The notes below the pieces were generated by a model, which ran no database searches, was not told where the DNA came from, and saw only the letters and a program-made list of their open reading frames with translations. 64,000 nucleotides of DNA from Rhizophagus prolifer (Eukaryota; Glomeromycota; Glomeromycetes; Glomerales; Glomeraceae). The position numbers and the translations under genes were made by a program. Position 1 is the stretch's first letter, and every line of letters starts with the position of its first letter. The stretch is taken from contig NQWY01024832.1 in the NCBI GenBank assembly GCA_019425655.1, forward strand, positions 1 to 64,000, written 5' to 3'. Positions 52,641 to 60,933 of the stretch are shown piece by piece.

Positions 52641-53351
52641 ATGAAAAAAACAATCAGTGTATCCAATCAGGGTGCAACCCTGGATACAGGCAGAAGAAAC
52701 TTTTTGAAGCTAAGTGGGGTAGGATTGGCAATGGCTGGTCTTGCGCTCGTAGGATGTAACGATGATGATATGATGATTGGTGGTAATGACAATATTTTTG
52801 ATCTTGGAAAAGGAGATGTTGGTGTCCTCAATTATGCATATGCGCTGGAGCAGCTGGAAGCGGATTTTTATACCAAAGTGGTTAATAACTTCTACTCCGG
52901 AATTTCCAGTGCGGAAAGAGAAATTTTTACAGACCTGTATCATCACGAGGTGATCCACAGGGATTTTTTCAAGGCTGCCATCAGCGGTGCAACATCCAAT
53001 GTGTTACCGACTTTGGAATTTCAGTATCCTAATGTGAACTTCAATGACAGGAACTCTGTGCTGGCAACCGCAAAGGCGCTGGAAGATACAGGTGTTGCAG
53101 CTTACAACGGCGCAGGCAGGTATATTACGAATCAGGATTATCTGGTTATTGCCGGTAAGATTGTTTCTGTGGAAGCAAGACATGCATCAGCGATCAGGAA
53201 TCTCATCAATCCGGGATCTGCTGATTTTTCAGGCGATGATGTGATAGATGCCAACGGATTGGATCTGGCAAAAGAGCCTAAGGATATTGTCATGGCAGCA
53301 GGTGGATTTATCAAAACGCCATTCACATGGAAAGAAAGAAACATCGGTTAA
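52641..53351 (+). CDS. Tat-exported ferritin-like lipoprotein
   Basis: A 236-residue ferritin-like (DUF4439/Dps-like) four-helix protein. The N-terminus is a twin-arginine signal (GRRNFLKLSGVGLAMAGLALVGC) with Arg18-Arg19 and a lipobox cysteine at 39, so it is exported folded and lipidated. The body has ALEQLEADFYTKVV, REIFTDLYHHEVIHRDFFKAA and SVEARHASAIRNLI, whose Glu/His pattern resembles a di-iron site. Export by Tat fits a metal-loaded protein. Its partner gene follows after 27 nt. Confidence 0.88.
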   Translation: MKKTISVSNQGATLDTGRRNFLKLSGVGLAMAGLALVGCNDDDMMIGGNDNIFDLGKGDVGVLNYAYALEQLEADFYTKVVNNFYSGISSAEREIFTDLYHHEVIHRDFFKAAISGATSNVLPTLEFQYPNVNFNDRNSVLATAKALEDTGVAAYNGAGRYITNQDYLVIAGKIVSVEARHASAIRNLINPGSADFSGDDVIDANGLDLAKEPKDIVMAAGGFIKTPFTWKERNIG

Positions 53352-53378
53352 TTATTCATCTTTTTAAAATCAATTATT

Positions 53379-54191
53379 ATGAACATTCTCAAAATACTAG
53401 ATAAGCTTTCTGATGACAAATTCTTCACAACAGAAGCTTCACGATTAAGCACTTTAAACAGTATAGCAGGTTTTGGTAAAAAAGCAGCAGTAGCGGCAGT
53501 GCCACTCGGGTTAGGAGCATTGATGATCACTCCCGTAAAAGCAGAAACAACAGATGCTGCATCTTCTTTTGCATTTAAAAGTACATTGACCGATGCATTG
53601 CAGCTGGCTTTGGTTTTAGAATACCTGGAAGATGAATATTATAGAATGGGGTTAGGTGTTAACAACCTTATTCCCACAGCGGACAGAAAAGTTTTTATGC
53701 AGATTTCAAAACATGAGACAGCGCATGTTGCTTTTCTTAAAAGTGCCTTAACATCATTGGGAGAAACGCCGAGATCAAAACCGACATTTGATTTTACAGC
53801 CAAAGGTAATTTCTCTCCGTTTACGGATTACAGCCAGTTTCTGATATTGGCTCAGGCATTCGAAGATACAGGTGTGAGAGCTTACAAAGGACAGGCAGGC
53901 AATGTGATGTCTAACAAAGATGTTTTAACAGCGGCTTTGCAGCTCCACTCCGTAGAGGCCAGGCATGCGTCTCAGGTCAGAAGAATGAGAGCTAATAAAG
54001 GCTGGATAGAATTAGCCAATGGTGGTAATATGCCTTCCGCAACCAATCCCGTCTATGCAGGTGAGGATAATACCATGCAGGCAGGTTTCAATACGGCAAC
54101 AGCTTTTGGTGCTCCGGCAGGATCCGCAGCTTATGACGAAACAATGAGCGGTTCAGATGCACAGACTATTGCATCCTTATTTATTGCGTAG
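53379..54191 (+). CDS. Ferritin-like domain protein, partner of the preceding gene
   Basis: A 270-residue relative of the preceding protein. Matching segments are ALQLALVLEYLEDEYYRMG, RKVFMQISKHETAHVAFLK and HSVEARHASQVRRMRANKG, again placing Glu and His residues as in di-iron carriers. The N-terminus (about 1-50) has a hydrophobic stretch (KKAAVAAVPLGLGALMITPVKA) that could be a weak export signal, but no RR motif. The C-terminal tail is glycine/alanine-rich. The two genes form an operon closed by a terminator. Confidence 0.87.
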   Translation: MNILKILDKLSDDKFFTTEASRLSTLNSIAGFGKKAAVAAVPLGLGALMITPVKAETTDAASSFAFKSTLTDALQLALVLEYLEDEYYRMGLGVNNLIPTADRKVFMQISKHETAHVAFLKSALTSLGETPRSKPTFDFTAKGNFSPFTDYSQFLILAQAFEDTGVRAYKGQAGNVMSNKDVLTAALQLHSVEARHASQVRRMRANKGWIELANGGNMPSATNPVYAGEDNTMQAGFNTATAFGAPAGSAAYDETMSGSDAQTIASLFIA

Positions 54192-54255: not shown

Positions 54256-54351
54256 CGTTCTTAACATATCAGGGTTTAAATAATCCAACTAAAACAATTC
54301 GTAGTTATTACTGAAACTTCCCGGTTATTATTAATCCATAAAAATAGCGTG

Positions 54352-54945
54352 ATGATAGAGGAATTAACATTAAAGTCATTCGGAGCTGACATTGAAGAAT
54401 ACAATGCCGGAGATACTGTTTTTAAGGAAGGAGAAGTGCCGCAGTTTTATTACCAGATTGCTAAAGGGAATGTTAAGCTGAATAATGTCCGTCAAAATAA
54501 CAAAGAATTGATACACTGCATCCTGAATGACAAGCAAAGTATTGCAGAATTTACATTATTTATGAATAAAACTTACCCGGTAAATGCTGTGGCGATCACA
54601 GCTTGCGAGGTGTTGAAGTTGCACAAAGTAGGGTTTTTAGATCTTTTGGTCAGTTATCCCAATATATATTCCAAAATTATCTGCAATCTTTCGGATTTTG
54701 TACATTTCAGGTTGTTGATGGGTGGTGTTTTGTTTGAACAAAATCCTGCCAGTAAGTTGATTTCACTGTTGGATCATCTCAAAAGTTCGCAGGATGATCG
54801 GGATCCTTTTTCATATCAGGTTCCATTCACAAGACAGCAATTGGCCAGCTTGACCGGTCTTCGTGTCGAGACCACAATCCGAACACTCAAGATAATGGAG
54901 AAAGAAAATGTTGTGAAAATCTCAAACGGAAAAGTGTTTTACTAA
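54352..54945 (+). CDS. Crp/Fnr-family transcriptional regulator 1
   Basis: A 197-residue regulator. The cyclic-nucleotide-like effector domain (EYNAGDTVFKEGEVPQFYYQIAKGNVKL) is followed by a long helix and an HTH_Crp domain (FTRQQLASLTGLRVETTIRTLKIMEKENVV). No FNR-type cysteine cluster at the N-terminus, so oxygen sensing through Fe-S is unlikely. Position after the ferritin-like pair suggests a role in the same stress response. ATG at 54352 is preferred to the GTG at 54349. Confidence 0.9.
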   Translation: MIEELTLKSFGADIEEYNAGDTVFKEGEVPQFYYQIAKGNVKLNNVRQNNKELIHCILNDKQSIAEFTLFMNKTYPVNAVAITACEVLKLHKVGFLDLLVSYPNIYSKIICNLSDFVHFRLLMGGVLFEQNPASKLISLLDHLKSSQDDRDPFSYQVPFTRQQLASLTGLRVETTIRTLKIMEKENVVKISNGKVFY

Positions 54946-55316: not shown

Positions 55317-56078
55317 TTACCACGGAATTTCTCCCGATTCGGGATTGGTTTCTTCGCAGAAAAATTTTCCCGTTACGCCGTCATTGCCAATTAAAGCATA
55401 TTTTACAATCCGTCTTCCGGCATCTTCCACTGTGCCTGTTCCACGGTTGTTGTTAAAATCCGTCTTTGTAAAACCCGGACTTACCGCATTGATTTTGAAG
55501 TTGGTATCACGAAGTTCATACGCCAGGTTCACAGTGTACATATTGAGCGCTGCCTTAGAAGATAGATAAACTGCCCCTTTGTGGTTGTAATACTTGTAAG
55601 TCGGGTCGCTGTGCAAAGTTATGGAACCCTGACTCGAGCTTACCATCACAATTCTTGGTTCGTCCGATTGTTTCAGCAGGTCCAAAAAAGCCTGTGTCAC
55701 CCTTATCACGCCATAAACATTGATGTTGTACACTTCTTTGAAAACATCAATGCTGGTGTGTTCAGCAGTTTGTGGGATGTACTCGCCTTTTTCATCAAAC
55801 TTTGCACCCGAGATTCCCGAGTTGTTGATCAGGATATCCAAAACATCTGTTGTTTTGCCGATCTCCAGTCGGGCGTTGTTTACCGAATTGTCATCAGTGA
55901 CGTCGATCTGAATGGCTTCTACCTGGCTCAGTCCTTCTGATTTTAGTTGCTCTACGGTTTTCTGCCCGTTTTCCAGGCTTCGGCTTCCGAGATAGACGTA
56001 ATGTCCCTGTTGTAATAATTGTCTTGCTGTTTCGAAGCCGATGCTTTTGTTAGCACCTGTTATGAATACTTTTTTCAT
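55317..56078 (-). CDS. Short-chain dehydrogenase/reductase
   Basis: A 253-residue classical SDR of NADP type. The cofactor motif is TGANKSIGFETARQL, the strand-4 motif is ILINNSGISG, the catalytic serine region is VMVSSSQGS, and YLSSKAALN gives Tyr-x3-Lys. Substrate unknown; carbonyl reduction is likely. It is transcribed away from a region with two perfect palindromes, one of which also stands before the Crp/Fnr gene upstream, so control by that regulator is likely. Confidence 0.9.
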   Translation of the reverse strand: MKKVFITGANKSIGFETARQLLQQGHYVYLGSRSLENGQKTVEQLKSEGLSQVEAIQIDVTDDNSVNNARLEIGKTTDVLDILINNSGISGAKFDEKGEYIPQTAEHTSIDVFKEVYNINVYGVIRVTQAFLDLLKQSDEPRIVMVSSSQGSITLHSDPTYKYYNHKGAVYLSSKAALNMYTVNLAYELRDTNFKINAVSPGFTKTDFNNNRGTGTVEDAGRRIVKYALIGNDGVTGKFFCEETNPESGEIPW

Positions 56079-56106
56079 GTCCTGTTGATTTAGAATTTGC
56101 TGCTGC

Positions 56107-56123
56107 TAAGTTGCGGCAACTTA
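56107..56123. promoter_or_regulatory. Perfect 17-bp palindrome before the SDR gene
   Basis: TAAGTTGC, G, GCAACTTA: 8-1-8 inverted repeat, 28 nt before the SDR ATG. On the minus strand TAAGTTGC also resembles a -7 box, so binding would block the promoter. Confidence 0.6.
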
Positions 56124-56134
56124 AAACAGAATCG

Positions 56135-56150
56135 TTTACCATTTGGTAAA
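56135..56150. promoter_or_regulatory. Operator copy 1: TTTACCATTTGGTAAA
   Basis: Perfect 7-2-7 palindrome, 56 nt before the SDR start and just after the stop of the Crp/Fnr gene. An identical copy is at 56754-56769. Confidence 0.7.
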
Positions 56151-56158
56151 AAGTGATT

Positions 56159-56719
56159 TTAGCGGATGTTTTTCCGGATTCTGCTCAACGATTGTTGCGT
56201 TATACCCAGGTAGGAAGCGATGTAAGAAAGCGGAACACGGTTGGCAAGGGTGGGGAATTTTTGAAGGAAGGTCAGGTAGCGGGTCGTAGCATCATCCGAA
56301 ACTAATGAACTTCTCCGATCCAGTTTTTCAACCAATGCCTTATGGAATATCTTGTTGGTGATATCGTTCCAGCCAACGATCGTATTGGAAAGTTCGTTCC
56401 AGTCCTGCTGCGAAAATACAATCAGCTTACAGTCCGTCAAGGTCTGGATGTATTCCGTGATTGGCTCGCCTGGGCTGGGGTTGGTAAACAGATGGTGTTC
56501 ATCCACAAAATACTTGGTTATCTCCTCACCTTTGTTGTTGTAGTAATAGATGCGTAAAATACCTTCCAAGATAAAAACAAACTGGTTGAAGGTTTTTCCT
56601 GCTTCTACAAGATAGTCACCTTTAAAAAGTGTTGTTTCAACCGTTTTGCTGCGGATAAGGTCGATCTGCTGTTGGTTCAGGTTACCGAATTGTAAAATAT
56701 AGTTGGTCAGTTCTTCCAT
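56159..56719 (-). CDS. Crp/Fnr-family transcriptional regulator 2
   Basis: A 186-residue regulator from the ATG at 56719. The effector domain has TLFKGDYLVEAGKTFNQFVFILEGILRIYY, and the C-terminal HTH is PLSYIASYLGITQQSLSRIRK, the type found in many Bacteroidota Crp-like regulators. No N-terminal cysteines. A TAACTTTG -7 box ends 5 nt before the ATG and a palindromic operator covers the -33 region, so autoregulation is likely. The frame is open to 56761, but that part contains the operator. Confidence 0.9.
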   Translation of the reverse strand: MEELTNYILQFGNLNQQQIDLIRSKTVETTLFKGDYLVEAGKTFNQFVFILEGILRIYYYNNKGEEITKYFVDEHHLFTNPSPGEPITEYIQTLTDCKLIVFSQQDWNELSNTIVGWNDITNKIFHKALVEKLDRRSSLVSDDATTRYLTFLQKFPTLANRVPLSYIASYLGITQQSLSRIRKNIR

Positions 56720-56724
56720 AGCTG

Positions 56725-56732
56725 CAAAGTTA
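56725..56732 (-). promoter_or_regulatory. -7 element of Crp/Fnr regulator 2 (leaderless arrangement)
   Basis: TAACTTTG on the minus strand, then CAGCT, then ATG. Confidence 0.5.
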
Positions 56733-56753
56733 ATTAAGCCTATTGAACTGTGG

Positions 56754-56769
56754 TTTACCATTTGGTAAA
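56754..56769. promoter_or_regulatory. Operator copy 2: TTTACCATTTGGTAAA
   Basis: Identical to the palindrome at 56135-56150. Its near edge is 21 bp upstream of the -7 box of regulator 2, covering the -33 position. Confidence 0.7.
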
Positions 56770-59223: not shown

Positions 59224-60933
59224 ATGAAATTAGAAGTTTCTTCAGAGAAACATTTGGTTTATGTGGAAGAAATCAGAAACGAAATGGAGGATTCCGCGAA
59301 AAAACGCGGAACTGGTATTGCAAAGCGTTCTTCCGACTATCTGGGCAAAAAAATCTCAGAAGGCAATTCTATTATAGCAATCGACGAAAATGGGAACTGG
59401 GCGGGCTTCTGTTATATAGAAACCTGGACTAACGGCGAATATGTTGCTAATTCCGGACTCATCGTTGCACCTCAATTCAGGAATGCCGGTCTGGCAACTC
59501 AGATTAAGGAAAGGATTTTCCAATTATCCCGTGAAAAATATCCGTATGCTAAAATTTTTGGATTAACAACTGGGTTAGCGGTGATGAAAATCAATAGCAA
59601 TTTGGGTTACAAACCCGTCATCTATTCTGAACTGACGCAGGATGAACAATTCTGGAACGGTTGCAAAAACTGCGTGAATTACGAAATTCTGATGATGAAA
59701 GAACGCAAAAACTGTCTTTGTACGGCAATGCTTTTCGTTCCCGAAAATCTGGTAGTTTTGGCATTTAGCGGAGGTTTGGACACTTCTTATTGCGCAAAAT
59801 ATCTGAGTGAAACTTTGGGTTACGAAGTTCATGCAGTTACGATTAATACAGGAGGTTTTGATAAAAATGATGAGGTTTCGCTTAAAGTAAAAGCGGAAAA
59901 ATTAGGCGTGACTTCTTACAGGTTTGTTGATGCTTCGGAAAAATATTATAATGATTGTGTCAGATACTTAATTTTTGGTAACGTTCTGAAAAACAATACT
60001 TATCCGTTGTCTGTGAGTGCGGAAAGAACGGTTCAGGCGCAGATGATTGCTGAGGTAGCTTTGGAAATTGGAGCTGATGCGATAGCGCACGGAAGTACTG
60101 GCGCAGGAAATGACCAGGTTCGTTTTGATTTGATTTTCAAAGTTATGTGTCCGAAAATCGAAATCATCACACCAATTCGTGATATGAGTTTGTCTCGTGA
60201 AGATGAGATTCAATTCCTGAAAGACCATAACTACGAAATGGATTTTGAGAAAGCGAAATATTCTATAAATAAAGGACTTTGGGGAACTTCCGTTGGCGGA
60301 AAAGAAACTTTGACTTCAAGACATCATCTTCCGGAAGAAGCGTTTCCGTCACAAATCGAAAGAACAGAACCTTCTCAACTGGAAATCGAATTCAAAAACG
60401 GAGAACTGATTTCTGTCAATGGCAAGACGTATTCACATCCGGTTTTGGCGATTCAGAAGATTGAGGAACTGGCTTCACCTTACGGAATCGGTCGCGATAT
60501 CCACGTTGGGGACACGATTGTCGGCATCAAAGGGCGTGTCGGTTTCGAGGCCGCGGCGGCTTCAATCATCATCAAAGCGCATCATTTGCTGGAGAAACAC
60601 ACCTTATCAAAATACCAGCAGACGATAAAATCGCAGTTGTCGGATTGGTACGGAAACTGGCTTCACGAAGCGCTTTTCCTTGACCCGGTGATGAGAAATA
60701 TCGAATCATTTTTGCAGGATTCTCAGAAAACAGTCAACGGAAAAGTGTTTATCACACTTCATCCGTATCGTTTTATTCTGAACGGAATCGAGTCTGAAAA
60801 TGATTTGATGTCTTCAAAATTTGGAAGTTACGGCGAAGAAAATCTCGCCTGGAGTGGTGAAGATGTGAAAGGATTTACCAAAATCCTCAGCAACTCGCTC
60901 AATATTTATCATCAGGTCAATAAACTGAACTAG
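59224..60933 (+). CDS. argG: GNAT acetyltransferase fused to argininosuccinate synthase
   Basis: 569 residues with two parts. Residues 1-175 are a GNAT acetyltransferase (VANSGLIVAPQFRNAGLATQI acetyl-CoA loop, ending NCLCTAMLFVPEN). From about 177, LVVLAFSGGLDTSYC starts a full argininosuccinate synthase, with AHGSTGAGNDQVRFD, EIITPIRDMSLSREDE and SINKGLWGTSVGG. ArgG ligates citrulline and aspartate; the GNAT may be the glutamate N-acetyltransferase of the pathway, inferred from position. In relatives the two are usually separate adjacent genes as far as I know; here they join without a stop and without the usual spacer. Confidence 0.92.
   Translation: MKLEVSSEKHLVYVEEIRNEMEDSAKKRGTGIAKRSSDYLGKKISEGNSIIAIDENGNWAGFCYIETWTNGEYVANSGLIVAPQFRNAGLATQIKERIFQLSREKYPYAKIFGLTTGLAVMKINSNLGYKPVIYSELTQDEQFWNGCKNCVNYEILMMKERKNCLCTAMLFVPENLVVLAFSGGLDTSYCAKYLSETLGYEVHAVTINTGGFDKNDEVSLKVKAEKLGVTSYRFVDASEKYYNDCVRYLIFGNVLKNNTYPLSVSAERTVQAQMIAEVALEIGADAIAHGSTGAGNDQVRFDLIFKVMCPKIEIITPIRDMSLSREDEIQFLKDHNYEMDFEKAKYSINKGLWGTSVGGKETLTSRHHLPEEAFPSQIERTEPSQLEIEFKNGELISVNGKTYSHPVLAIQKIEELASPYGIGRDIHVGDTIVGIKGRVGFEAAAASIIIKAHHLLEKHTLSKYQQTIKSQLSDWYGNWLHEALFLDPVMRNIESFLQDSQKTVNGKVFITLHPYRFILNGIESENDLMSSKFGSYGEENLAWSGEDVKGFTKILSNSLNIYHQVNKLN

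Follow-up and report, generated by a model that had tools for sequence, protein, structure and literature searches.

A 16-bp site shared by a Crp/Fnr-type regulator gene and its neighbouring carbonyl reductase-like gene: a predicted local and probably activating circuit in the Bacteroidota

Two identical 16-bp inverted repeats lie in front of two adjacent genes in the 64,000-nucleotide stretch of DNA analysed here (hereafter, the window), raising the question of which protein reads them and to what effect. A sequence-only reading had placed the motif at 56135-56150 (site 1) and 56754-56769 (site 2), each 5' of a minus-strand gene start, and both points were confirmed: the two copies of TTTACCATTTGGTAAA are exact, site 2 preceding a gene for a Crp/Fnr-fold regulator of 186 aa (56159..56719, minus strand) and site 1 a gene for an SDR-family enzyme (55317..56078, minus strand). 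In gene orientation both sites read TTTACCAAATGGTAAA. Site 1 begins 8 nt past the regulator stop (56159), within the 80-bp gap that separates it from the first base of the SDR gene (56078). The description of the motif as a perfect palindrome did not hold, as TTTACCATTTGGTAAA and its reverse complement TTTACCAAATGGTAAA mismatch at the two central bases; two inverted 7-bp arms flank an asymmetric 2-nt centre (TTTACCA-TT-TGGTAAA, centre TT/AA). Two copies within 635 bp had also been judged unlikely by chance, and we agree, because the same pattern read backwards, used as a control, occurs only about 15 times in 296 family genomes; the probability of a second chance copy within 635 bp is of order 1e-5. 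For a whole-genome scan, the nearest genome (G001, 3.5 Mb, regulator 98% identical) stood in for the window's own assembly. It contains exactly two copies of TTTACCANNTGGTAAA, both at the orthologous locus and with the same 619-bp spacing as in the window.

The regulator gene starts at the ATG at 56719. A mechanically called start at 56761 was discarded, since it begins inside site 2 and the longer frame is out of frame in most relatives and not conserved. Pfam finds only a cyclic-nucleotide-binding domain in the protein (cNMP_binding, PF00027, 5.2e-10, above the gathering score), with no detection of HTH_Crp. AlphaFold2 was run on 67 sequences from the window and the loci (mean pLDDT 94.9), and along its full length the resulting model resembles solved structures of CRP and FNR, with TM by query reaching 0.88. 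From this we conclude that a DNA-binding winged helix is present, and profile alignment to FNR and DNR runs through the recognition helix (ITQQSLSRIRK). The domain hit, the model and the fold matches assign the protein to the Crp/Fnr superfamily, with a predicted N-terminal beta-roll of the cyclic-nucleotide-binding type and a predicted C-terminal winged helix-turn-helix.

Comparison with known members of the superfamily reveals both shared and divergent features. The regulator shares with FNR and DNR its fold (TM by query 0.79-0.88 to FNR) and a 16-bp two-half-site geometry, and would also share a site centre at -41.5 (class II) if its promoters start as predicted; its recognition helix carries the S-R motif of FNR (TQQSLSR here, TVETISR in FNR). 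It differs from FNR in its half-site (TTTACC versus TTGAT), in having Gln or Ser rather than Glu at the specificity position, and in its apparent range: no large regulon, but the home locus plus a small number of SDR genes. The four [4Fe-4S] cysteines of FNR are likewise absent from the window regulator, whose sole cysteine is Cys97. This residue is kept in 141 of 145 subfamily regulators; Cys58, present in 125 of the 145, is Tyr in the window protein, and the family conserves only Cys97 and, often, Cys58. E. coli CRP has the same combination of a cNMP-binding beta-roll and a winged helix, but a different site and a longer C-terminal domain, and the protein studied here is, unlike CRP, a putative autoregulated local factor. 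In addition, Arg82 and Ser83 of the CRP cAMP pocket, the former a cAMP contact, align with Ile87 and Thr88 of the window regulator, and the family profile has no Arg at that position (profile alignment). The best full-length solved relative is 3dn7, a cyclic nucleotide binding regulatory protein of Cytophaga hutchinsonii (profile E 4.7e-45), which is nevertheless a more distant paralogue with the helix TPEYLSEIRK. Neither a function nor a DNA site is known to us for that protein.

Both site positions are conserved across the phylum. The comparison covered 80 relatives from across the Bacteroidota (57-98% identical) and the window, 81 sequences in all; this set was fetched partly via a peptide pattern containing SYLGITQQ, which favours Gln at residue 176, and a second set was not. 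The motif was sought 5' of orthologues in related genomes, as the sequence-only reading had suggested: about 70 of the 81 sequences have it 49-50 nt before the ATG of the regulator, 78 have it 7-8 nt past the regulator stop, and it is neither scattered nor missing at orthologous gene pairs. Orthologues with both sites at these fixed positions include those of Chryseobacterium, Flavobacterium, Pedobacter, Dyadobacter, Chitinophaga and Maribellus. Short Crp/Fnr paralogues number at least a dozen in Bacteroidota genomes of this group, with 13-16 in each of the four that were searched. A private palindrome at -49 as a rule for all such paralogues was considered and dropped, as 27 distant paralogues showed no palindrome peak at that position.

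The gene that follows the regulator varies more than the sites do. In most loci it starts about 78 nt past the regulator stop, and the downstream site stands some 70 nt ahead of this SDR or aldo/keto reductase gene. Across 136 loci it encodes an SDR in 122 cases and an aldo/keto reductase, a fold unrelated to SDR, in 12, with two single cases besides. The window enzyme (253 aa, Pfam adh_short 1.8e-40) resembles NAD(P)H carbonyl reductases, its nearest solved relatives being plant alcohol, menthone and salutaridine reductases, and the downstream SDRs span several subfamilies, with identity to it as low as about 25-30%. Between relatives, then, the promoter stays and the enzyme is swapped.

The strongest support that the regulator itself reads the predicted sites is covariation between the two. 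The subfamily sample comprises 145 regulators, 143 of them with a readable site, and the recognition helix is TQQSLSR in 96 of the 145 and TQSSLSR in the other 49. Among regulators with Gln176 (n = 95 with a site), base 4 is A in 350/350 half-sites (TTTAnC); among those with Ser176 (n = 48 with a site), it is G in 122 instances and A in 22, and every such regulator has at least one TTTG half (TTTGnC). Helix type and site type are concordant in 143/143 regulators. Residue 176 is the sole alignment column that perfectly predicts site type, other columns of the DNA-binding region reaching at most 0.85. When the last 22 residues, which include the helix, are left out of the tree, four switches are inferred for each trait; strongly supported branches require just one of them, and weaker branches carry the remainder. 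Profile alignment places residue 176 opposite FNR E209, the Glu of TVETISR. In CRP and FNR, this Glu of the recognition helix contacts a G:C pair at the corresponding half-site position. The locus displays a feature of the superfamily, namely a 14-16 bp inverted-repeat site for a dimer (16 bp here) whose key base tracks the residue equivalent to Glu181/Glu209. In a single case, a 46%-identical relative (L189, genome G023) has the helix MKQPSLSRVR and TTTCACAAATGTGAAA 6 nt past its stop, possibly a third specificity with Pro at 176 and C at base 4.

The same data bear on whether the sites belong instead to an unlinked DNA-binding protein, for example of the TetR or HxlR type, with the Crp/Fnr gene merely a target. 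Genome G008 (loci L005 and L010) does carry two exact copies of TTTACCAATTGGTAAA away from the regulator, 1.4 kb apart and with similar flanks, one in the vicinity of genes for an HxlR-like protein and an SDR, the other close to a glyoxalase-like gene. These copies, however, have repeated flanks in common and no promoter layout, and 11 of the 13 exact sites in the genus flank a Gln176 regulator. An unlinked protein would also leave unexplained why the site base follows residue 176 of the Crp/Fnr regulator in every one of the 143 pairs, and the 16-bp dimer spacing suits the Crp/Fnr fold. We consider such a protein very improbable. That the Crp/Fnr regulator autoregulates and controls the neighbouring SDR gene through both predicted sites is, in contrast, well supported by sequence comparison. 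The autoregulated two-gene unit originally proposed is supported by the phylum-wide conservation of both positions and by the covariation, with the refinement that each gene has a predicted promoter and a site of its own in place of a single operon promoter.

These promoters share a fixed layout. A sigmaA -7 box (nAnnTTTG) recurs downstream of the site: NANNTTTG has an offset of 21 bp in 127 cases and of 20 bp in 18, all other offsets accounting for at most 6 cases each. In the window, the regulator promoter has a perfect -7 box, TAACTTTG (56725..56732, minus strand), starting 21 bp after site 2, and the SDR promoter a degenerate one, CAACTTAG (56106..56113, minus strand; CAACTTTG in relatives), which starts 21 bp after site 1 and is off consensus at two positions. 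The sigmaA box of F. psychrophilum, TAnnTTTG, occupies -12 to -5 (PMC9723704). Carrying over this Flavobacterium distance sets +1 at the 50th base from the site start and, if transcription does begin at the published distance from the -7 box, would centre the site at -41.5 in both promoters. The predicted regulator start (56719..56720, minus strand) coincides with the A of the ATG or lies 1 nt before it, so the regulator mRNA would be essentially leaderless, as are only 5.5% of mRNAs in F. psychrophilum (PMC9723704). The predicted SDR start (56101, minus strand) would give a leader of roughly 22 nt, which is close to the 24 nt published as the median (PMC9723704). At 56105-56121 the window has a second inverted repeat, TAAGTTGCCGCAACTTA, with 8-bp arms and a 1-nt centre, which overlaps the SDR -7 box, as it does in the nearest genome, and might serve as a further operator or form a 5' RNA stem.

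Site 2 had been said to cover the -33 region of the regulator promoter. It does overlap that region, as a consequence of its predicted centre at -41.5, the usual position for a Crp/Fnr activator. The alignment consensus has no TTTG -33 element at the expected place. Self-repression is common among small local regulators of reductases, and dimers bound at both sites might block RNA polymerase at -33 until an inducer, the substrate of the reductase, releases them; the overlap with the -33 region in both promoters and the perfect -7 box of the window regulator promoter would suit such a scheme. The constant distance of 21 bp between site and -7 box nevertheless suggests polymerase contact, as a blocking site would be expected to drift more, and promoters that have no TTTG -33 element look dependent on help. 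Crp/Fnr sites at -41.5 are, moreover, typically activating: of the 23 E. coli promoters that FNR activates and whose start site is known, 19 have the FNR site at -41.5 +/- 4 (PMC3688515). The predicted centre, this precedent and the missing -33 element together favour activation, which we regard as quite probable, and repression as unlikely.

Site 1 could alternatively act as an RNA stem that weakly terminates transcription of the regulator gene. The SDR promoters of most relatives have a T-rich tract, TTTCnTTTTTT, between the site and the -7 box (56114-56134 in the window; alignment positions 20-29 after the site start in relatives), and this conserved tract follows directly on site 1 and not on site 2, as would befit a terminator. 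The 16-nt stem is weak (-4.1 kcal/mol), however, and the same sequence precedes the regulator and unlinked SDR genes, positions at which there is no message to terminate; changes in the site also follow the protein rather than stem stability. With a weak stem and the wrong distribution, a hairpin was rejected as the main role, for which its chances seem slight indeed, and termination could be a secondary role that does not exclude the predicted binding.

The regulon appears to be very small, comprising the regulator and carbonyl-reducing enzymes, as judged from the searches within the genus, in six related family genomes and with a blind pattern. In the six genomes, unlinked intergenic sites precede SDR genes, with the -7 box at the same spacing in the promoters read. 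The blind search for the site, 21 bp and nAnnTTTG in 296 Bacteroidota genomes returned five matches, one in a regulator promoter and four in SDR promoters, two of the four without an adjoining regulator gene. A large regulon was rejected: most of the additional exact sites in relatives belong to the regulator or to unlinked SDR genes, or are chance occurrences within coding sequence or a terminator-like stem.

Taken as a whole, we give a probability of roughly 70% to the reading that a local Crp/Fnr dimer activates two class II-like promoters from predicted binding sites at both. The dimer would bind the 16-bp site TTTACCAnnTGGTAAA, made up of two 8-bp half-sites, occupying the copy 5' of its own gene and that 5' of the adjacent SDR gene; from -41.5 it would touch the sigma and alpha subunits and activate both promoters, in the manner of FNR and CRP at class II promoters. 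The outcome would be positive autoregulation together with induction of a carbonyl reductase, an enzyme of the detoxification type (the SDR here, an aldo/keto reductase in some relatives). Because the targets are carbonyl reductases, an electrophile or carbonyl is a reasonable guess, and no more, for the signal, which might be sensed in the beta-roll domain, possibly by Cys97.

Among open-licence papers, none was found that gives the site sequence, the regulator-SDR pair or a site for this regulator subfamily. The superfamily is well known; the subfamily, with its site, promoter layout and specificity residue, is by that search new and undescribed. A wider proposal, which we hold tentatively and at somewhat less than even odds, is that throughout the phylum a fixed cassette (site, 21 bp, -7 box) drives a leaderless self-activating regulator and an interchangeable carbonyl-reducing enzyme, that repeated changes between Gln and Ser at residue 176 have moved the target from TTTACC to TTTGCC or back, insulating paralogous circuits within one genome, and that some electrophile, such as a reactive carbonyl, serves as the signal. 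For one short Crp/Fnr subfamily the site, the promoter layout, the regulon and the residue that sets specificity are now defined, and its natural protein-site pairs may serve the study of paralogue insulation or the construction of orthogonal switches in Bacteroidota.

Two nearby features of the window were also recorded. Another Crp/Fnr-type gene, with a clear HTH_Crp_2 domain, lies at 54349-54945 (plus strand) and adjoins two ferritin-like genes (52641-54191). At 59224-60933 (plus strand), a single frame joins a GNAT acetyltransferase-like N-terminus to an apparent argininosuccinate synthase, possibly a fusion or an assembly error, and is followed by argC- and argD-like genes.
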